From: Pseudonocardia sp. SCN 73-27
GTDB taxonomy: Bacteria; Actinomycetota; Actinomycetes; Mycobacteriales; Pseudonocardiaceae
Direction of reading: 5' to 3'
Assembly (NCBI GenBank): GCA_001725415.1
Contig: MEGH01000037.1
Coordinates: 1 to 43,045, forward strand
Length of the DNA: 43,045 nucleotides
In this document: piece after piece, positions 2-10,054 of the stretch
Position numbering within the stretch: the stretch's first letter is position 1
Layout: each line of letters opens with the position of its first letter
Notes under the pieces: generated by a model
The model's input: the letters and a program-made list of their open reading frames with translations, nothing else
What the model was told of the DNA's origin: nothing
The model's database searches: none
Program-made: the position numbers and the translations under genes

Positions 2-397
2 ACGTCGTTCTCCGACGACGAGGCGCTCTTCGGCGCGATCATGGCCGGGGCAGCCGGCTACCTGCTCAAACAGGTCGCGGGCACCGACCTCGTCGGCGCC
101 GTCCGCACGGTCGCGGCGGGCGGGTCGCTGCTCGACGCGAAGGCGACGACGCAGGTGCTGGAGCGGCTGCGCCGTGGTGACCGGACCGAGGACCCGCGCT
201 ACGCGGGGTTGTCGCCGCAGGAGCAGCGCATCCTCGGCCTGATCGCCGACGGCCTGACCAACCGGCAGATCGGCGCCAGGCTGCATCTCGCCGAGAAGAC
301 GGTCAAGAACTACGTGTCGTCGCTGCTGCACAAGCTGGGTTTCTCGCGCCGTACCGAGGCCGCTGTCTACGCGGAGCGCCGCCGCACGAGCGAGTGA
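2..397 (+). CDS. NarL/DosR-type response regulator, C-terminal part (5' end outside window)
   Basis: The reading frame is open from base 2, so the start codon and the phospho-acceptor Asp lie before the window. About 131 residues are visible. They include the end of a receiver domain, with the GYLLK stretch carrying the conserved Lys, then a linker and a LuxR/NarL helix-turn-helix from about residue 70. The recognition-helix region (AEKTVKNYVSSLLHKLG) closely matches the DosR/DevR dormancy regulators of mycobacteria. DosR-like proteins are phosphorylated by sensor kinases in response to hypoxia, NO or redox change. The neighbours (Rv1733c-like protein, universal stress protein, CBS protein) are classic DosR-regulon members, which supports the assignment. 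It converges on the next gene with a 59-bp gap. Confidence 0.9.
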   Translation, partial: TSFSDDEALFGAIMAGAAGYLLKQVAGTDLVGAVRTVAAGGSLLDAKATTQVLERLRRGDRTEDPRYAGLSPQEQRILGLIADGLTNRQIGARLHLAEKTVKNYVSSLLHKLGFSRRTEAAVYAERRRTSE

Positions 398-1047: not shown

Positions 1048-1233
1048 GGCTTCCTCCCCCGGGCACTCGTCAGCGGCGAACGGCGACTCCCGGGTGGCGC
1101 CGCCCTGTGCACTGCCTCCGAGCACACCGCACCGACGCCCTGGCGGACCAGGGCCGAGTGGTCCGTCGCGATCGACCGGAGGTCCCGATCCGCGGGAGGG
1201 GCACCCCGCCGGGGTTGGATCCGCCGGGCCGAT

Positions 1234-1254
1234 GGTCCCGCACGGTGTGGGACC
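1234..1254. promoter_or_regulatory. inverted repeat in divergent promoter region
   Basis: GGTCCC and GGGACC form 6-bp arms with a 9-bp spacer in the 295-bp gap (1048-1342) between the Rv1733c-like gene and the flavodoxin gene. The half-sites resemble the GGGAC/GTCCC halves of DosR boxes but the orientation and spacing do not match the mycobacterial consensus. No other element could be supported in this gap. Confidence 0.2.
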
Positions 1255-1973: not shown

Positions 1974-2822
1974 ATGGAGCGGCGGCACGGATCCGGTGAC
2001 GAGCACGCGGTGCTCGTCGGGGTGGACGGAACGACGACTGCCCTGCACGCCGTGGCCTGGGCTGCCGCGGAGGCCGACGCGCACGGCGCGTCGTTGACGA
2101 TCGTGCACGCCGCGCCCTACGCCGTCGGCGAGCGCGGCACGCGACGGGCCGCCGGGATCCTGGGCCGGGCCAGGGCTGTCGCGCAACACGAGCGACCGGC
2201 GCTGCACGTCGAGACCCGACGCAGCGAGGAGCAGCCGCTGCCGGCGTTGGTCGAGGAGGCCGGCCGCGCGCGGCTGCTGGTGACGGGCCTGATCTCCGAG
2301 ACGATCACCGACTCCGTCCTGGGGTCGGTGACCCTGGGGGTGCTGGGCCGCACGTCGTGCCCGCTCGCGGTGATCCGCAGCAGTGACGTGGCCGGCAACG
2401 GGATCGTGGTCGGCACGAGCGACGTGCAGGCGGATGCCGGCGCACTCGCGTTCGCGTTCGCCGAGGCGGCCGCACACGGCGACGAGCTGACGGTCGTCCA
2501 TGCCGACGTCCGTCGCCATGCACTGCCCCTGATCCCGCTGGTCGAGGCGGTCGGCGGGTTCTCGACGCGGTTCCCGCAGGTGCGGGTCCAGATCGACGGC
2601 GCCCGTGGCAGGGCCGCGGACGTCCTCGCGGCGCGGTCGACGGGCGCGCGGATGCTCGTCGTCGGCAGCCGGGGTCCCCACAATGTGAGCCGGGTCCTGC
2701 TGGGCTCGACGAGTGGCACGCTCGTCCGGACCAGCGCCTGCCCGGTCGTGGTCGTACCGCACGAGCACCGGGGGCACCCAGCCGCCGGGGCTGTCGGCCA
2801 CAGGCACGACGTCTCGACCTGA
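1974..2822 (+). CDS. universal stress protein, tandem UspA domains
   Basis: The product has 282 residues with two UspA folds in tandem, about 10-140 and 143-275. The second domain has an intact ATP-binding signature G-2x-G-9x-G-S within VVGSRGPHNVSRVLLGSTS. The first domain has a degenerate version in which the second Gly is Ser. This two-domain layout is that of the DosR-regulated Usp proteins of mycobacteria, which act as nucleotide-binding growth regulators under oxygen limitation. A clear GAGGAG precedes the ATG. The upstream 82-bp gap plus the end of the flavodoxin gene must hold its promoter, if it has one. It could also be read through from the flavodoxin gene. Confidence 0.92.
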   Translation: MERRHGSGDEHAVLVGVDGTTTALHAVAWAAAEADAHGASLTIVHAAPYAVGERGTRRAAGILGRARAVAQHERPALHVETRRSEEQPLPALVEEAGRARLLVTGLISETITDSVLGSVTLGVLGRTSCPLAVIRSSDVAGNGIVVGTSDVQADAGALAFAFAEAAAHGDELTVVHADVRRHALPLIPLVEAVGGFSTRFPQVRVQIDGARGRAADVLAARSTGARMLVVGSRGPHNVSRVLLGSTSGTLVRTSACPVVVVPHEHRGHPAAGAVGHRHDVST

Positions 2823-2837: not shown

Positions 2838-3084
2838 GCGCTACCGGCCCCGGTACCCGGATGCACGACCGCAGGGCCGTTGGACCCTCCACGGGGGACC
2901 CTCGGACGTCGCACCATCGACCCAGACATGACGGGCTCCACCAGCCACCACCCGACCCTCCGGAGGGGGCGGGTGACCCCGCCGGGACCGCGTTCGGGGG
3001 AACGCCACCCGGCCCCGGCCGCGGGCGCTCCCGGCATGACAGGGCGGAGACATTCGGCACGGAGCGGGGATCGGGGGGTGCGGC

Positions 3085-4083
3085 ATGGGATGGACTGCGG
3101 CGCAATGGGGTCTCGACGTCGGTAGCAGCAGCACCGTCGTCTACGACCTGAGCGGTGGCTTCCTGCTCGACGAGCCGTCGTTGATGCTCGAGATGCCGCA
3201 CGGCGGCGGTACCGGCATCGGTCGCGACGCCGCCGACCTGATGGAGCGGCTGCCCTCCGCGGCGGGCGCGGTCCGGCCCGTGCGCGCGGGCGTGGTGACC
3301 GATCTGGACACTGCGCGCCGCTACATCCGCGCCGTCGTACGCCGCATCCTCCCCCGCCCGTGGCAACGTTCCCGCCTGTCGGTCGCCCTCGTCGTACCCG
3401 CAGCGGCCAGCGCACTGGAGCGGCGCGCCCTCGTCGAGGCAGCCGAGGAAGCGGGAATCGGCCGGGTGGTGGCCCTCGCCGCGCCGGTCGCGGCAGCAGT
3501 CGGCTGTGGGCTGGACCCGCTCGACCGACGGGCCCACATGGTGGCGGACGTGGGCGCGGGCACCGCCGAGATCATGGCCGTCTGTTACGGGGAGGTCCTC
3601 GCCGTACGGTCCACGCGGCAGGCCGGCGACGCGCTGACCGCCGCCGTCCGCCACCATCTGCGAACCGAGCACCGGCTGCTGACCGGCCCGGCCGCGGCCG
3701 AGGCGCTGACCCGACAGGTGGGCCTGGCCCAGCCCGACGCTCGGCTCGCCGTCTCCGGCCGCGACGTCGAACACGCTCGCCCACGATCGCTGCAGATCCC
3801 GGCGGCAGAGCTCCACGACCTCGTCGCCGCACATGTCGCGGCCGTCGCACAGGTGCTGTCCAGCTGCCTGGACGACCTGCCCGCACAAGCGGTCGACGAC
3901 ATCGCCGCCGACGGCGTCCTGCTCGTCGGCGGCTCGTCACCCGCCCGCGGGCTCAAGGCGGCACTCGAGTCCGGGCTCGGTCTCCCGGTCAAGCAGGCCG
4001 AGAACCCGGTCACCTGCATCGCCGAGGGAGCTGCGCGCTCGCTCGTGCTCCCCGACGTGCGGTCCGTCTTCGGCCTGCGCTGA
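3085..4083 (+). CDS. MreB/Hsp70-like actin-fold ATPase (orphan MreB homologue)
   Basis: The product has 332 residues, close to the usual MreB length of about 340. It shows phosphate-1 as GLDVGSSSTVVYD (about 9-21), a MreB-type segment with GVVTDLDTARRYIRAVVRR (about 71-89), phosphate-2 as VADVGAGTAEIM (about 153-164), and the adenosine loop LLVGGSSPARG near residue 278. This is the actin/Hsp70 fold. Overall order and length fit MreB better than DnaK, since there is no substrate-binding domain. MreB polymers guide the lateral-wall elongation machinery. Many apically growing actinobacteria have no MreB, and no mreC or mreD is visible here. The stop is only 5 bp from the converging RodA-PBP fusion gene, so the two probably form a functional pair. 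A GGGGGG ribosome-binding tract precedes the ATG. Confidence 0.82.
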   Translation: MGWTAAQWGLDVGSSSTVVYDLSGGFLLDEPSLMLEMPHGGGTGIGRDAADLMERLPSAAGAVRPVRAGVVTDLDTARRYIRAVVRRILPRPWQRSRLSVALVVPAAASALERRALVEAAEEAGIGRVVALAAPVAAAVGCGLDPLDRRAHMVADVGAGTAEIMAVCYGEVLAVRSTRQAGDALTAAVRHHLRTEHRLLTGPAAAEALTRQVGLAQPDARLAVSGRDVEHARPRSLQIPAAELHDLVAAHVAAVAQVLSSCLDDLPAQAVDDIAADGVLLVGGSSPARGLKAALESGLGLPVKQAENPVTCIAEGAARSLVLPDVRSVFGLR

Positions 4084-4088
4084 CCTCC

Positions 4089-7001
4089 TCACGGTGGTGG
4101 CGGCGACGCCAGGTACCCACCGAGGCCGTCCACCACGATCCGGCCCGCGCTGTTGGCCCCCTGCCCCGGGCCCTGGACGAGACTGGTGACCACCACCGTC
4201 GGGGCGTCCAGCGGCGCCGCCACGGTCGTCCAGTTGTCGTAGCTTCCGGCGGGCAGGCTTCCGTCCTGGGCCGTGCCGGTCTTGGCTCCCGAGTCCACCG
4301 GCAGCGGCGCGAGCCATCCCGCCGTGCCGGAGCGCACGGCAGCGCGCATGCCGTCACGGACCGGCCCGAGTGCCGCCGCGAACGGAACCGGCTGCGGCGG
4401 CGGCTGCGGCAGGGCCGTCGTCCCGCCACCGGGGGTGACGACCGCCAGCCCCAGGTGTGGTGTGACGAGCCGCCCCGTGGTGAGGGCCGCCGTCCACCGG
4501 GCGTTCTGCAGCGGGGTGACCTGCAACGGGCCCTGGCCGATGCCGAGGATGACGGTGGTCCCGCCGTACCACGGCTCCCCGGTGTCCGGGCTGCCCAGGT
4601 GACCCGCCGACTCGCCAGGAAGATCGATCCCGGTCGGCCCGCCGACCCCGAGGGCGCGAGCGGTGTCGATGATCGGCCCGGGACCCATCCGGGCCGCCAG
4701 CTGGTAGAAGTAGACGTCGTTGGACCAGCCGATGGCCTGCGGCAGGTTCATCGGCCCCATCGGACGCCAGTTGGCGAAGGTGTGGCCCCCGAGGGTGAAG
4801 CTGGCGCCGGTCGGGACGACCTGCGTGGGCGGGATGGTGCCCGTCACCATGTTTGCCGCCGCCACCACGAGCTTGAACGTCGACCCCGGTGGCACGGCGA
4901 CCTGCGTGACGTGGTTCAGGCCGGGACTACCGGGACGCGCGTCGACGGCGGCGAGCGCGGCCGCGTCCACCGGCGGGCCGTAGACGTTGTCGTCGTACGA
5001 CGGCAGGCTCGCCATGGCGAGAACCTGTCCGTCCCGCGGATCCATGGCCACGGCTGCGCCGACGGCGCGGGGGTCGGACTGGGCCGCGAGCGACACCCGC
5101 AGCGAGTCGGTGAGCCGCCGCTGCAGCGGCAGGTCCACAGCGGTCCGCAGGCCCGCCCCCGGAACCGGTGCCTGTTGCGGACCCGGCGCCACCGGCACCC
5201 CGGTCGGGGTCACGTACCAGCAACGCCGGCCGTCGACGCCCCGCAGCACGGCGTCATAGGTCGCCTCCAGCCCGAGCCTGCCCACCACGGTCCCGGGGGC
5301 CAGCGACGGGTCCCGGGCCGTCTGCTCGGCCGTGGCGACGCCGGCGAAGCCGAGCACCGGTGCGAGGAGCTCCCCCGTCGGGTAGAGGCGGCGCTCCTCG
5401 TCCGCCACGACCACGCCCGGCGCGTCCCGCAGGACCCCCACCCGCCCGACGGGAGCCGCGCCGACCTCAAGGTCGAGCGTCGTCGCCGCGGCCGCGGCGA
5501 CCGCCGCGCGCAGCTGGTCGAGCGGGCGCCCGGTGACGGCGGCGACCCGTTCGAGCTCGGCCGGCGTCACCAGCGCGGGCACCACACCGACGGATGCGGA
5601 GCCGGCGTCGGTCGCGGCGGCGTCCTGGGCCAGGACCGTGCCGTCGCGGGCCGTGATCTCGCCGCGCGGTGCGGCCACCCGCAGGCAGCGCACCATCTGT
5701 TCCTGGCCCGCCGCCACCAGCGACGGCTGCTGCCGCGCCTGGACCTGGCCGCCCACCACGGCGAACGTCACGAGGACCCCGGTGAGCACCAGCGCGGAGC
5801 TCTGGACGAGCCGGGGGCGCAAGCGCCCGGGAGCGGCCCACAGCGCGCGCCGTGCACCGTCCCGACGCACCCCGAGGACGGTGCCGATGGCGACGAGATG
5901 CACCACCATCGCCGTTCCGCCGTTGCTCACCAGCGGGAAAGGGACACCGGCGAGCGGCAGCAGACCGAGGTTGCCGCCGACGGACACCACGACCTCGGCA
6001 CCGATCAGCACCGCGAGCCCACCCGCGACCAGCGCACCGTGGCTCGTACGGGCCCCACGTGCCGCCGTCGCGAGCCGCCAGACCAGGATCAGTGCCGCGA
6101 GCAGCACCGCGAAGCCCGCGACCCACCCGAACTGCTCGACGAGGCTCGCCGGCGCGAGGTCGGTGGATCGTTCGGGCAGGTAGCTCTCGAGCACGTCGGT
6201 GAGCGGATGACCCGCGCGTCCGAACCACCCGCCGGAGGCCACCGCGATACGGGCCTGCGATGCGGCCCACCCGGCGCCTCCGGCCGCCTGGGCCGAGCCG
6301 GCGAGGAAGCTGCCGAGGCGTTCTACCTGATACGGCCGCAACAGTCCCACGACGAGGGGGGCCGCCACGACGGCCGCCGCCGCGACCGGGAGGAGGAACC
6401 GGGCGGGTACCCGTCCGATCACCACGAGGGTGACGGCGACGACGACGAGCAACGCGGTGGTGCTCAGGTCCGGTTGCAGGACGGTCAGGACGATCGGGAC
6501 CGCCGCCAGGACGAGAGAGCCGGCGAACCGTTGCCAGGCCGGGCGGGTGGACGCGAGCAGGGCCGCCATCATGAGGAGCAGGCCCAGCTTCGCCAGCTCC
6601 GAGGGCTGGAACGTGAACGCGCCCACGTCGAGCCAGCGGGTCGCGCCGTTCGTCCGGTTCCCGAGCAGCGGGACTGCGACGAGCATGACCACGGCGACGG
6701 CGTAGCTGAGCACCGCGACCACTCCGAGCACCCGGACGCGTATCCGCCGCGACGTCAGCAGGAGCGCGAACCCGACGGCAGCGATGGCTCCCTGCCGCGC
6801 CGCCGTCCCGGCGCCCCCGACGGCCGCCAGGTTGGCGACGCCGATGACGACGAGGACAGCGGCCGCGAGGATGGCCAGCGCGTCGAACGTCGGCTCCCCC
6901 GGCAGCCTCCGCCGCACCCGAGCGGGTCTCGGATCGGACGCCCACGTCGACAACCGCCGGCGGCCCCCCAGCCATCGGCGACCCCTCCGCAGCCTCTGCA
7001 C
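4089..7001 (-). CDS. RodA/FtsW glycosyltransferase fused to PBP2-type transpeptidase
   Basis: One uninterrupted 970-residue protein carries both halves of a cell-wall synthase. Residues about 40-380 are a SEDS (RodA/FtsW) multi-pass domain with TRWLDVGAFTFQPSELAKLG, QPDLSTT, LPERST followed by Asp281 (the presumed catalytic Asp), and GVPFPLVSNGGT. A further helix at about 401-421 leads to an extracytoplasmic class B penicillin-binding protein. That part has a dimerisation/pedestal region and a transpeptidase with Ser707-TFK, Ser760-Asn-Asp and Lys907-Thr-Gly, all intact. The SND followed by VYFYQLA is PBP2 (MrdA)-like. It should polymerise lipid II and cross-link the product in the membrane. 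RodA and PBP2 are normally separate proteins. The start is GTG with GGGAGG 7 bases upstream. It is 16 bp downstream of the next gene and probably co-transcribed with it. Confidence 0.93.
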   Translation of the reverse strand: MQRLRRGRRWLGGRRRLSTWASDPRPARVRRRLPGEPTFDALAILAAAVLVVIGVANLAAVGGAGTAARQGAIAAVGFALLLTSRRIRVRVLGVVAVLSYAVAVVMLVAVPLLGNRTNGATRWLDVGAFTFQPSELAKLGLLLMMAALLASTRPAWQRFAGSLVLAAVPIVLTVLQPDLSTTALLVVVAVTLVVIGRVPARFLLPVAAAAVVAAPLVVGLLRPYQVERLGSFLAGSAQAAGGAGWAASQARIAVASGGWFGRAGHPLTDVLESYLPERSTDLAPASLVEQFGWVAGFAVLLAALILVWRLATAARGARTSHGALVAGGLAVLIGAEVVVSVGGNLGLLPLAGVPFPLVSNGGTAMVVHLVAIGTVLGVRRDGARRALWAAPGRLRPRLVQSSALVLTGVLVTFAVVGGQVQARQQPSLVAAGQEQMVRCLRVAAPRGEITARDGTVLAQDAAATDAGSASVGVVPALVTPAELERVAAVTGRPLDQLRAAVAAAAATTLDLEVGAAPVGRVGVLRDAPGVVVADEERRLYPTGELLAPVLGFAGVATAEQTARDPSLAPGTVVGRLGLEATYDAVLRGVDGRRCWYVTPTGVPVAPGPQQAPVPGAGLRTAVDLPLQRRLTDSLRVSLAAQSDPRAVGAAVAMDPRDGQVLAMASLPSYDDNVYGPPVDAAALAAVDARPGSPGLNHVTQVAVPPGSTFKLVVAAANMVTGTIPPTQVVPTGASFTLGGHTFANWRPMGPMNLPQAIGWSNDVYFYQLAARMGPGPIIDTARALGVGGPTGIDLPGESAGHLGSPDTGEPWYGGTTVILGIGQGPLQVTPLQNARWTAALTTGRLVTPHLGLAVVTPGGGTTALPQPPPQPVPFAAALGPVRDGMRAAVRSGTAGWLAPLPVDSGAKTGTAQDGSLPAGSYDNWTTVAAPLDAPTVVVTSLVQGPGQGANSAGRIVVDGLGGYLASPPPP

Positions 7002-7017
7002 GACGACCTCCCGGCGC

Positions 7018-7563
7018 TCACGAATCGCAGCGTTCGGCGGCCGACACCCTCAGCGGCGGCGCCGTCGCCATCGCGGGACCGGTCGTCGACACCGTCAGCG
7101 CCGTTGCCGCCGCCGGGGGCAGGGCCACGACCGTCACCGCGTCGACCCGGTCCGCGGCCGCGGGCAGGGCAGCCGTGCCGGTGCCGACCTCGCGCACCTG
7201 GCCGGTACAGAGATCGTGCGCCTGCACGACCCAGGACACGGCCCCCGCGCCGGCGCCGTCCAGGAGGATCTGGACCCGGACCCGGCAACCACCCCCGCCG
7301 GTGCACCCGGGAAGGACACGCAGCCCGACCGCCCGAACCGGTCCTGCGGCGGCCGGCAGCGCCACGTCGGGAAGGTCGGGCGGCTGAGCAGCCGCGGGGA
7401 TCGCCTGTCGCGCAACCGGATCGCGGGGGGTGTCCAGCACGAGAGAGACGTCGGCCGTGATCCGATCCCCGAGCAGCACGAACTCGAGCGCCACGAGGCC
7501 CGCCACCACCACGGGCCACACGAGCCACGGCCCCCACCGGCGTCCGGGTCGCGCCCCGGTCAT
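7018..7563 (-). CDS. membrane-anchored exported protein of unknown function, RodA-PBP partner
   Basis: The product has 181 residues with one membrane segment near the N-terminus (about 12-30, WPVVVAGLVALEFVLLG) and an extracytoplasmic domain rich in Ala, Val and Pro. The outer domain contains Cys pairs (GCTGGGGC and a later DLC, with a C-terminal ERCDS) that might form disulphides. I do not recognise a family. The ATG at 7563 is the best start by position before the membrane helix, but the ribosome-binding site is weak and a start slightly upstream is possible. It ends 16 bp before the RodA-PBP gene on the same strand. An accessory or regulatory role with that synthase is therefore likely, but this is inference. 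Confidence 0.6.
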   Translation of the reverse strand: MTGARPGRRWGPWLVWPVVVAGLVALEFVLLGDRITADVSLVLDTPRDPVARQAIPAAAQPPDLPDVALPAAAGPVRAVGLRVLPGCTGGGGCRVRVQILLDGAGAGAVSWVVQAHDLCTGQVREVGTGTAALPAAADRVDAVTVVALPPAAATALTVSTTGPAMATAPPLRVSAAERCDS

Positions 7564-8261
7564 GAGTCGGCCGGCCCACGGACGGAGCCGCGGGGCGGGC
7601 GGTCCCGCTCGCCCGGCGACAGTCCGATCTCCCGCAACCGTGAGCCACCAGCCGTCGTCACCGCCGAACCTCCCGGTCCCGTTCCGCCCCGTTCCGCACC
7701 GTGCAGGCGGTCGGCGCCACCGGCAGTGGAGGTGGCGCGCAGGCATCGCTGTCGGATGTCGGCGGACGCCCGGGCCGCGTCCGGACCCGCGTCGCCGCCC
7801 CCGGCCCGGTCGTCGCCTCCACCCCCGGTGCGCCGCCGTCGCCGAGGTTAGGGATCGACGGCGTCGACGATCAGGGCCGAACGTCCCGGACACCACCGGT
7901 CGATCGGTCCACCCGGCTGCTGGGCCGCCGGTCGAGGACGACCCCGCGGCACGGACGTGCGGGGCCGCGAGACCGCACGGCCCGAAGCGCCCCGCGGCGC
8001 CGCGGCTGCGCCGACGGACCGGGCATACCGGACCTGTGCGACGACGAGTCACGCGGCTCCGCACAGTCGCTTCGACGTCGAGGAGAAGGTCGTTGGTCCC
8101 GTGTCCGCCGTCAGCCCGACGTGCCACGGTCGACGGGTTCCTTTCCGCACGCGCCACGGAGCCTGCCGGTTCCGGACGTCGTGACCGTCGATCGATGCGC
8201 GCACCGGAGGCTCGGCTCCGGCCGCGGGACCGTTCCCACGGATGCCGCGCCGAGGCCTGCC
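7564..8261. other. 698-bp intergenic region without a supportable gene
   Basis: This region separates the divergently transcribed RodA-PBP operon and the sigma-factor operon. Both strands have long open frames but their translations are Arg/Pro/Gly-rich and show no domain, as expected from codon bias at this GC content. It must contain promoters in both directions. I could not assign a specific promoter or hairpin. Confidence 0.5.
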
Positions 8262-8900
8262 ATGTACCGAGGACGACAACCATTGCGCGCCGACACGCCG
8301 GATCCCGGCACCGGCGCCGACGACGACAGCCGGATCGACCGACTGGTGGGCCCAGCCCAGGCCGGTGACGCCGCGGCCCTGTCCGAGCTCATGGAGCTGG
8401 TCCGCCCGCTGGTGGTGCGCTACTGCTCCACCCGCGTGCGGGGCTCGACCATCTCTCCCGAGGACGTCGCGCAGGAAGTGTGCGTGGCACTGCTGAAGTC
8501 CCTGCCCCGCTACCGCAGCCGCGGCCGCCCGTTCCTCGCTTTCGTGCACTCGGTGGCCGGCCATCGCCTCGCCAATGCGTTCACCTCGGCAGCACGGCGA
8601 CACGAGTTCGCGATCGCCGAGCTTCCAGCGGACTCGATCCGGTCCGACCCCCGGGAACAACCCGAACAGCACCTCCTGGACGAATTGATGGCGGGAGAGG
8701 TCGGCCTACTGCTGCGTCGACTCCCCGCCGAACGTCGGGACATCCTGGTGCTCCGCATCGCATGGGGCCTGTCGGTGCGCGACACCGCTGCGGTGCTCGG
8801 TCTCGCGCCCGAACGCGTGCGGCTGCTCCAGCACCGTGCCCTCAACTCGCTGCGGCACTCGCTGTCCGACACCCGCCGAGGTCGAAGGGGGCGGCGATGA
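8262..8900 (+). CDS. ECF-type RNA polymerase sigma factor, SigD/ShbA-like
   Basis: The product has 212 residues. Sigma region 2 lies at about 38-105 and includes the ISPEDVAQEVCVALLKSLPRYR helix and a basic segment. Sigma region 4 lies at about 140-200, with LPAERRDILVLRIAWGLSVRDTAAVLG and ERVRLLQHRALNSLR as the helix-turn-helix. The match is best to the SigD/ShbA group, whose partner is an RsdA-type anti-sigma factor, and exactly such a gene follows with an ATGA overlap. The start is uncertain: ATG at 8262 is listed, but TTG at 8283 has a GAGGA sequence at a good distance. It should direct transcription of its own operon and distant targets when the anti-sigma factor is removed. Confidence 0.88.
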   Translation: MYRGRQPLRADTPDPGTGADDDSRIDRLVGPAQAGDAAALSELMELVRPLVVRYCSTRVRGSTISPEDVAQEVCVALLKSLPRYRSRGRPFLAFVHSVAGHRLANAFTSAARRHEFAIAELPADSIRSDPREQPEQHLLDELMAGEVGLLLRRLPAERRDILVLRIAWGLSVRDTAAVLGLAPERVRLLQHRALNSLRHSLSDTRRGRRGRR

Positions 8901-10054
8901 GCCGACGTGAGCCGTTCGACCTGTGCGCGGTCCTCGCCGACGACGCACTGCTCGACGCACTGGGCCCGCGGGCGGAGAGCGATGCCCGCATCCGTGCCCG
9001 GTTCGGCGACGACGTGCTGGTCGAGACCTTGCTCCTGTATCGGGGACGACAACTGGCGCCGACCCCCCGCATCCGAGTGACGAGACGGTTCCGGCCCAGA
9101 GCGACCGTGGTCGCGGCGGCCCTGATCGCCGTCGTGTTCGGGCTCGGGAGCGGCCTGGACGCGGGGATCGGCCCGCCGGGTCCGCCGACGGGGCCTGCCG
9201 CCCACACGGTCGACAGGTATCTCAAGCTCGCCGCCGCGAACCTCGCGTCGGGCGACCACGCCTCCGCGCGAGTCGACGTGGTCCGCGCCGGCCGGCTGCT
9301 CGGCGCGGTCCGCGCCGCGGACGCCCGGAGCGAGCTGGAGGCACGGTGGGTCGCGATCGACCGGGCCGTGCGCGACACGACCGCGCCGCTCGTGTCCCGG
9401 TCCGACCGGGTACCGGAGAACCGCGAGCCGGCGACCGGCGCCGCCCACTCCACGAGCTCGAACTCCCCGCCGCACCAGGAGCGGCAGGATCGGGCGGCCA
9501 CCTCGTCCGTCCCGGTTCCTCCGCACCGGCAGGTGCCGGTGGGCACCGACCGGCACGCCGCACTCGACCCGCCGCACGACCCGCCGGCCGCGGACGGTGC
9601 GACCGCGCGCACGACACAGCGGTCCGCCGAGGACCGGCGCTCCCAGGACGAGGCCGGCAGGCCCCCGCCTGCACACGAGGGGCGCACACCCACCACGCCC
9701 CTGCCGGTGAAGGCCCGGACCCACTCCGACGACCCGTGGCACGTCGCCGGACAGCCTCCGACATCCCGGCCCACCGCACCGCCGGACGGCCGGTCGTCGA
9801 CCCGGGACGCGTCGTCGTCCTGGGACCGGACCCCGCCGGCACGCCACCGGGCCGACTCGAACGGGCTCGCCCCACACCCGAGGACGTGGCCGGACGTCGG
9901 ACGGCCGGGGCTCGCCGGGCTGCTCCGTTCGGGTGGCCTTCGGCCTGGTCCGCAACGCGGGCACCACCTGCGCGGCTATGGGGGGGCACCCCGCGAGGGT
10001 GCGCAGGAACGGAACGTCCCGGGGTGGCGACGGATCGCCCCCCGGTTCGAATAG
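8897..10054 (+). CDS. RsdA-like membrane anti-sigma factor
   Basis: The product has 385 residues. The N-terminal cytoplasmic part has FDLCAVLADDALLDALG, the typical sigma-D-binding helix of RsdA proteins. A single membrane segment lies at about 71-93 (TVVAAALIAVVFGLGSGL). The remaining 290 residues are an extracytoplasmic, Pro/Thr/Arg/His-rich low-complexity tail with a short helical region (about 110-160). RsdA in mycobacteria is degraded by regulated proteolysis to free SigD, and the same logic is likely here. Its ATG overlaps the sigma stop codon by four bases (ATGA), so translation is coupled. The tail is longer and more disordered than in RsdA of M. tuberculosis, which I recall as somewhat over 300 residues. 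Confidence 0.82.
   Translation: MSRREPFDLCAVLADDALLDALGPRAESDARIRARFGDDVLVETLLLYRGRQLAPTPRIRVTRRFRPRATVVAAALIAVVFGLGSGLDAGIGPPGPPTGPAAHTVDRYLKLAAANLASGDHASARVDVVRAGRLLGAVRAADARSELEARWVAIDRAVRDTTAPLVSRSDRVPENREPATGAAHSTSSNSPPHQERQDRAATSSVPVPPHRQVPVGTDRHAALDPPHDPPAADGATARTTQRSAEDRRSQDEAGRPPPAHEGRTPTTPLPVKARTHSDDPWHVAGQPPTSRPTAPPDGRSSTRDASSSWDRTPPARHRADSNGLAPHPRTWPDVGRPGLAGLLRSGGLRPGPQRGHHLRGYGGAPREGAQERNVPGWRRIAPRFE

Follow-up and report, generated by a model that had tools for sequence, protein, structure and literature searches.

Three adjacent genes are found in the window, the whole stretch of 43,045 nt analysed here (Pseudonocardia sp. SCN 73-27, contig MEGH01000037.1 of assembly GCA_001725415.1, positions 1-43,045 of the forward strand). 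The first, mreB (3085..4083, plus strand), encodes a 332-aa MreB actin of a type assigned by Pfam, alignment and tree. The second (4089..7001, minus strand, GTG start) encodes a 970-aa protein identified by Pfam, NCBIfam and alignment as a predicted single-chain RodA-PBP2 peptidoglycan synthase. The third (7018..7563, minus strand), located 16 bp upstream of the fusion gene on the same strand, encodes a 181-aa membrane-anchored protein with an outer four-cysteine domain, the beta fold of which is taken from a relative. All three reading frames are open, and the convergent stop codons of the two large ones are separated by only 5 bp (4084..4088), as described in the first-pass annotation.

The upstream side includes the C-terminal end of a DevR/DosR-like LuxR regulator (2..397, plus strand; 61% identity over 130 aa to the DevR-like regulator of locus L136), a universal stress protein (Usp) gene next to the module (1974..2822, plus strand; Pfam), and a membrane-protein gene without Pfam match, divergent from a flavodoxin-like gene whose match is weak and below the Pfam cut-off. 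Beyond the third gene, a domain scan identified a sigma-70-type gene with regions 2 and 4 (about 8391-8900, plus strand), and this side also has genes for an ABC transporter and a FAD-binding protein; a family scan of the downstream ORF 8480-10054 gave no match. The proposal that the module is set between DosR-type genes is thus correct for the upstream side (LuxR end, Usp) but not for the downstream side. Beyond the module, flanking genes differ among genera, the commonest family being present at 7 loci among the best 80 of 492 relatives. The arrangement of the three genes themselves is conserved across genomes and is therefore not due to chance.

A single ORF carries, in order, the Pfam domains FTSW_RODA_SPOVE (E=2e-62), PBP_dimer (3e-18) and Transpeptidase (5e-47), with the RodA part at about residues 40-381 and the PBP part at about 414-955. 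Among NCBIfam models, RodA (238 bits) scores above FtsW (193 bits), and PBP2 is highest at 332 bits, above FtsI. None of these models passes its own curated cut-off, so the two halves are divergent members of their families. The fusion has D281, S707xxK710, S760-N-D and K907-T-G, which we take to be the catalytic aspartate and the SxxK, SxN/D and KTG motifs. Across 73 fusions, D281 is conserved in 72/72 (one gap) and S707, K710, S760 and K907 are each conserved in 73/73. The synthase is RodA and PBP2 in a single chain, with both predicted active sites conserved. An AlphaFold model of the fusion (pLDDT 65) was too poor for use.

The third protein has no family match in Pfam or NCBIfam scans. 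It consists of a membrane anchor, a linker rich in proline and an outer domain in which four cysteines are conserved; since this anchor, single and N-terminal, and the outer domain can be read by eye, the protein is membrane-anchored and not simply exported. In most relatives, the equivalent outer domain lies at the end of a protein of about 400 aa or longer, and the idea of a small exported protein of no assignable kind was rejected because the relatives show it to be a short form of a larger membrane protein. A cytoplasmic kinase-derived (KIND-like) domain is present in 61 loci and absent in 14 among the window and the best 80 of 492 relatives, L046 being used in place of L064, judged to be the same genome; six loci (L072, L081, L108, L118, L120 and L128) were not assessable. 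In the window, this domain is absent in all six frames, and a long ORF (7018-8283, window frame) was rejected as its source since the domain is not inside.

A kinase origin of the domain is indicated by the Dormibacterota-type copies, of which 3/9 have a Pkinase match (best E=8e-8) and whose profile matches solved kinases at E=3e-16; the HRD motif, which we take as the kinase signature to look for, is absent from their alignment by eye. The actinobacterial copies, in our reading, would retain only the C-lobe part of the kinase. Their profile gives a match to the Spire KIND domain (E=0.006) and numerous kinase matches (0.02-0.8), a level also reached by a few unrelated proteins such as a TetR regulator. 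The Rhodococcus jostii form was modelled at a pLDDT of 81.5 overall and about 95 for both domains. In a Foldseek search with this model, Spire KIND structures occupied the top two positions (E=7e-4 and 8e-4, probability 1.00, TM by target 0.58), closely followed by many beta-sandwich matches ascribed to the outer domain. The outer domain of this relative is modelled as a four-cysteine Ig-like beta fold, with no PASTA match. In the Dormibacterota-type MAG loci L086, L087, L098 and L104 and their kin, the third gene is found beyond the other end of mreB, on the opposite strand. The supporting alignments are subsets: alignment A2 covers 12 of 15 family genomes, omitting L051 and L052 (TAG in the matched stretch of the fusion) and L060 (cut by the contig end); A3 has 12 rows, omitting L052, L053 and L060; and A4 has 48 of 81 rows, chosen mainly where the motif search succeeded (45 of 71).

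The first-pass annotation had proposed co-occurrence of the genes as a check, and the association of MreB with the fusion holds. Of 200 family genomes searched, 15 carry MreB (E<=1e-20), and exactly these 15 carry the fusion as well (E<=1e-90). The two genes are less than 1 kb apart in 14/15 and 8.7 kb apart in the remaining genome, G169. The pairs are convergent in eight cases and co-directional in seven: adjacency is therefore kept while orientation changes. The outer domain of the third gene is present in 14/15, the contig of L060 ending before that region. In the order (229 genomes), profile searches detected seven genomes with MreB and eight with the fusion; the mreB of the eighth genome (G763; L239, 16976-17499) is split between two frames and lies 7 kb away from the fusion, which is intact. 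In 396 genomes of the phylum, a profile search found module-type MreB only in the genome studied here (482 bits; best other, 296 bits), so the module is sparse in that sample. An earlier search of the phylum with a single fusion protein (1/396) is distrusted because only two candidates were scored per genome.

The notion that the module is a curiosity of one genus was rejected once the MreB alignment had been run against public genomes. The best 80 of 492 relatives include Pseudonocardia, Amycolatopsis, Haloechinothrix, Actinophytocola, Actinomycetospora, Rhodococcus, Prescottella, Skermania, Hoyosella, Nocardioides, Blastococcus and Phytoactinopolyspora, together with MAGs labelled Dormibacterota, Chloroflexi, Acidimicrobiia, Bacillota or just bacterium. 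At 72 of these 80 loci, a single-ORF fusion lies beside the module MreB, with a largest gap of 1.5 kb. The remaining eight comprise one with two ORFs (L102), five cut by the sequence end, and two without a fusion in the sequence covered (L118, and L108 on a 4.5-kb contig). The mreB and fusion genes are convergent in 67 of these best 80 of 492, co-directional in 10 and not assessable in 3. Fusion genes also occur on three large Rhodococcus plasmids (NZ_CP046575.1, L237; NZ_CP070615.1, L238; and NZ_CP021356.1). No MreB was found near the fusion in the two plasmids examined, one of which retains the third-gene domains. G169 carries a second, partial module-type mreB beside DDE_5 and Mutator-type transposase genes (L061, 8849-9163; contig C1, about 52.8-53.2 kb).

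The window MreB is a full-length match to MreB_Mbl (PF06723, E=3e-64, residues 7-320), and its eight best chains among solved structures are all MreB. A tree separates 81 module MreBs from 33 other actinobacterial MreBs with 100/100 support; the 33 include second MreBs from four Nocardioides genomes in which the module is present as well, and the tree omits seven module-type loci (L174-L180) and L144, which is the window itself. The sequences thus place module MreBs in a clade of their own, apart from canonical MreBs. In the window protein, the EEP-motif glutamate, presumably the catalytic residue equivalent to CcMreB E140, is replaced (LAAP, with Ala at residue 133). This glutamate is retained in 33/33 other actinobacterial MreBs and in 65/81 module MreBs (window and best 80 of 492). 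Among the same 81, it is lost in 16, Asp155 in 6 and Thr160 in 5. Residues D11, G13, G157, G159, G282 and G283 are invariant (81/81, window and best 80 of 492). The Asp155 phosphate site is changed to Asn or Ser in six loci of the Rhodococcus/Prescottella group (L113, L117, L121, L123, L127 and L136), all of which retain the cytoplasmic domain and the glutamate, some having also lost Thr160.

These losses raise the question of whether MreB is a pseudo-actin undergoing decay in a selfish or degenerating passenger of which only the synthase matters. The broken mreB of G763, the partial copy next to transposases in G169 and the plasmid-borne fusions without a nearby mreB would all be expected from such a process. 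It would account less readily for the six invariant residues and for the retention of the glutamate in most copies. Moreover, MreB and fusion divergence are correlated (r=0.82, 73 genomes), although shared descent alone could produce such a correlation. We consider decay of this kind improbable.

Loss of the glutamate tends to coincide with loss of the cytoplasmic domain. It is lost in 12/14 loci without the domain versus 2/61 with it (75 assessable loci among the window and best 80 of 492; Fisher 3e-10, a value inflated by shared descent). The assessable rows contain four domain losses and five glutamate losses, three of them shared (the P. dioxanivorans group, Actinomycetospora and R. triatomae), and a branch-length test of the link gave p=0.10. 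When Glu, Asp155 and Thr160 are taken together, at least one is altered in 12/14 loci without the domain versus 8/61 with it, the latter figure arising because the six loci that keep both domain and glutamate have lost Asp155, beside the two glutamate losses; these six loci speak against the link. The association is suggestive, and the KIND-like domain may act on the nucleotide cycle of MreB.

The rest of the genome (6.95 Mb in 99 contigs) provides the context in which the module would operate. In a PF06723 search, the window MreB scores 217 bits and seven other proteins 26-63 bits. The best four of these were scanned and rejected as MreBs, three being Hsp70 and one, of 270 aa, scoring better as FtsA; the three weakest score 26-29 bits. 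No second full-length MreB was found in the genome, in agreement with the designation of an orphan MreB. The reported lack of mreC extends to the whole genome: a search with no match here was positive in 8/14 control genomes. A housekeeping mre operon already containing both genes, which by the first-pass annotation would have spoken against its reading, is therefore not apparent, there being neither another full-length MreB nor MreC. The genome has three SEDS genes: the fusion and one on each of contigs C7 and C33, so that FtsW and RodA-PbpA are encoded away from the module. The C33 gene adjoins genes for a PbpA-type PBP, a kinase, a PP2C phosphatase and two FHA proteins, and the stretch containing the C7 gene also has a glycosyltransferase-28 gene and another class B PBP gene. 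The ordinary machinery is therefore present and the fusion represents a third pair.

A similar picture was obtained for 46 module genomes, from among the 80 loci (best 80 of 492 relatives). MreC is absent in 40/46 and present in 6 (five Nocardioides and one MAG), and these six also carry a second MreB (246-287 bits). More than one MreB match was found in 11/46 and a single one in 35/46. On these counts, the module is not a degenerate mre operon, nor does it depend on MreC. Further MreB-like matches (147-234 bits) occur in five module genomes without MreC (G779, G782, G797, G800 and G806).

A stress-related function had been proposed from the neighbouring genes. With GGGACYWWNGDCCC as the DosR-like box consensus, a pattern that gave no hit in the papers searched for it, one perfect site (GGGACCATCGGCCC, 1226..1239, minus strand) was located between the divergent membrane-protein and flavodoxin-like genes, and three sites with one mismatch, all on the minus strand: GGGTCCAACGGCCC (2874..2887) between Usp and mreB, GGGACGTTCGGCCC (7874..7887) 311 bases before the ATG of the third gene, and another (8087..8100) 524 bases before it. 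The last two also precede the opposite-strand sigma gene and could serve either. The first 8.3 kb contain four sites with no or one mismatch, compared with 0.55 for shuffled sequence (60 shuffles, maximum 3), and control regions contain 16 such sites in 1.04 Mb. When three mismatches are allowed over the whole window, there is no enrichment (33 versus 43.6 expected). Perfect GGGACYWWNGDCCC sites occur at 15 places in 11 loci over 1.41 Mb of module loci, and the 1.04 Mb of control sequence has none. Five Nocardioides loci have a single perfect site in 21 kb, 77-84 bases before the aligned mreB start; around it, L105 and L110 have diverged while the other three are alike. No perfect box was found in a sixth Nocardioides locus, L103. 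A perfect site precedes mreB in 5/79 cases, all Nocardioides, versus 6/496 other genes (p=0.010), and those six are Usp genes or neighbours of DosR-type genes. In L065, the box precedes a Usp gene directly upstream of, and running into, mreB. L139 (Actinomycetospora sp. TBRC 11914) has perfect boxes at 9434 and 15458, one preceding a small ORF that leads into mreB and the other preceding a DevR-like match.

The neighbouring genes themselves are not widely shared. With the window neighbours as tblastn queries over 80 loci (best 80 of 492), matches were obtained to the LuxR end at 10 loci and to Usp at 7; the membrane protein matched at 3 and the flavodoxin-like gene at none. Around the family's 15 copies, the LuxR end alone was found, at 3 loci, and Usp is absent from the 20 kb read in the nearest relative, P. 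dioxanivorans. Nevertheless, at least two DosR-type families (counting DevR, DevS, Usp, nitroreductase, membrane protein and flavodoxin-like gene) lie within about 10 kb in 9/81 module loci from three lineages (window and best 80 of 492), versus 0/52 random 20-kb regions with any such family (Fisher p=0.012), a comparison that favours the module side since the queries came from module loci, which are related. The random regions were drawn from 24 module genomes and the genome studied here, and L046 again replaced L064. The proposed stress link is thus partly supported, by the clustering of neighbours and boxes, but is weakened by the rarity of Usp, the absence of the flavodoxin-like gene and the lack of a perfect box before any Rhodococcus mreB. 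DosR-type control of the module is likely in some lineages.

Most loci of the Rhodococcus group, Haloechinothrix and Dormibacterota have no DosR-type neighbours (within the Rhodococcus group, the exceptions are L117, L121, L123 and L136), and no Rhodococcus, Rhodococcus-group, Haloechinothrix or Dormibacterota locus has a perfect box before mreB. Together with full conservation of the two-domain enzyme, this would suit a minor elongasome acting constitutively in vegetative cells, for example in rod-coccus shape control or wall repair, with an incidental DosR linkage. The patchy occurrence of the module in the family (15/200 genomes) and the enrichment of boxes and neighbours over controls argue against this, and we regard it as a serious possibility, albeit an unlikely one. 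Dormancy could also involve a developmental stage at which a thickened or spore-like wall is made, rather than growth under low oxygen, and DosR-type linkage would fit such a role too. Several carrier genera are mycelial or sporulating, but Rhodococcus and Nocardioides, which contribute many and several loci, respectively, are non-sporulating. Although Streptomyces is described in passages of PMC3296230 as using its MreB homologues only in sporulation, the module MreB branches separately from those 33 actinobacterial MreBs outside the module. A sporulation or dormant-cell role therefore seems to us rather unlikely.

Taken together, comparative sequence evidence favours a real and conserved auxiliary module resembling an elongasome, in which the three genes would form one functional unit (probability about 0.6). 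The suggestion of a compact, condition-specific wall-synthesis module is thereby retained as far as co-occurrence is concerned and only in part for its stress link. In such a module, the membrane protein would take the place of RodZ or MreC: with its cytoplasmic domain it would contact or regulate the MreB filament, and with its outer domain it would touch the PBP2 part. Through these contacts, the filament could position a polymerase and crosslinker that are always paired. In the lineage of the window, where the cytoplasmic domain and the catalytic glutamate of MreB are both gone, the filament probably stays ATP-bound and serves as a static or slow scaffold. In some lineages, including this one, DosR-type control would probably turn the module on at low oxygen or in dormancy, beside normal tip growth run with the housekeeping RodA and PbpA. 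The most specific form of this reading, a self-contained and dormancy-inducible second elongasome of tip-growing actinobacteria in which a KIND-like membrane pseudokinase replaces MreC, MreD and RodZ and governs the nucleotide cycle of its own MreB filament, which guides the single-chain synthase, domain loss yielding a non-hydrolysing scaffold, is tentative and on balance unlikely. Its standing was lowered slightly because six domain-keeping loci have altered another residue of the nucleotide site.

If the module operates in this way, an actin-guided wall machine with a permanently coupled synthase would exist in further tip growers too, among them Rhodococcus, Nocardioides and Pseudonocardia. 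It would provide a minimal three-gene system in which to ask what purpose MreC, MreD and RodZ serve, would offer a natural case of MreB working without ATP hydrolysis, and might connect wall building to the control of dormancy. Passages of the literature describe the actinobacteria studied as growing apically, with mycobacteria and corynebacteria lacking mreB (PMC3296230), an actin homologue as missing in some actinobacteria (PMC3989709), and Mycobacterium tuberculosis and its relatives as lacking all Rod components but RodA-PBP2 (PMC8262863). Literature searches with partial coverage, by titles and abstract starts, found no description of the module under MreB in carrier genera or the gene set, nor, with similarly partial coverage, under KIND or pseudokinase with MreB, or MreB with DosR.

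The closest known counterpart is the MreBCD-RodZ-RodA-PBP2 Rod system, with which the module shares an MreB-family actin, RodA and PBP2 with intact active sites, and a membrane-anchored protein in the place of the linker. It differs in that RodA and PBP2 form one chain, MreC is absent in 40/46 module genomes, the linker of the relatives carries a cytoplasmic domain of kinase origin and does not match the RodZ family, and the MreB belongs to a separate clade. The fusion has precedents: single-ORF SEDS-PBP fusions occur naturally, according to passages of PMC10449877, and a synthetic RodA-PBP2 fusion is largely functional in E. coli, according to passages of PMC6207328. Unlike those natural fusions as PMC10449877 presents them in such passages, which do not mention MreB or a third gene, the module fusion is linked to both.

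Parallels also exist with PknB-type kinases, which control RodA and PbpA in actinobacteria. Both have a kinase fold, a membrane anchor and an outer domain beside RodA and a class B PBP, and the RodA and PbpA genes of the genome studied here adjoin a kinase gene. The module domain differs in being without the HRD motif or a whole N-lobe, and the outer domain is modelled as a four-cysteine Ig-like beta fold with no PASTA match. Spiroplasma is a wall-less host, and its MreB3 differs from the module in this and in having no synthase partner. Like the window MreB, however, MreB3 is without the catalytic glutamate for ATP hydrolysis, as indicated in passages of PMC12372405. Finally, the KIND domain of Spire, a eukaryotic actin nucleator, ranks first by fold against a relative's modelled cytoplasmic domain and first in the profile search as well. 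The scores are modest (TM by target 0.58, E about 7e-4) and do not support common descent or function; since both are non-catalytic kinase C-lobes, their likeness may reflect convergence.
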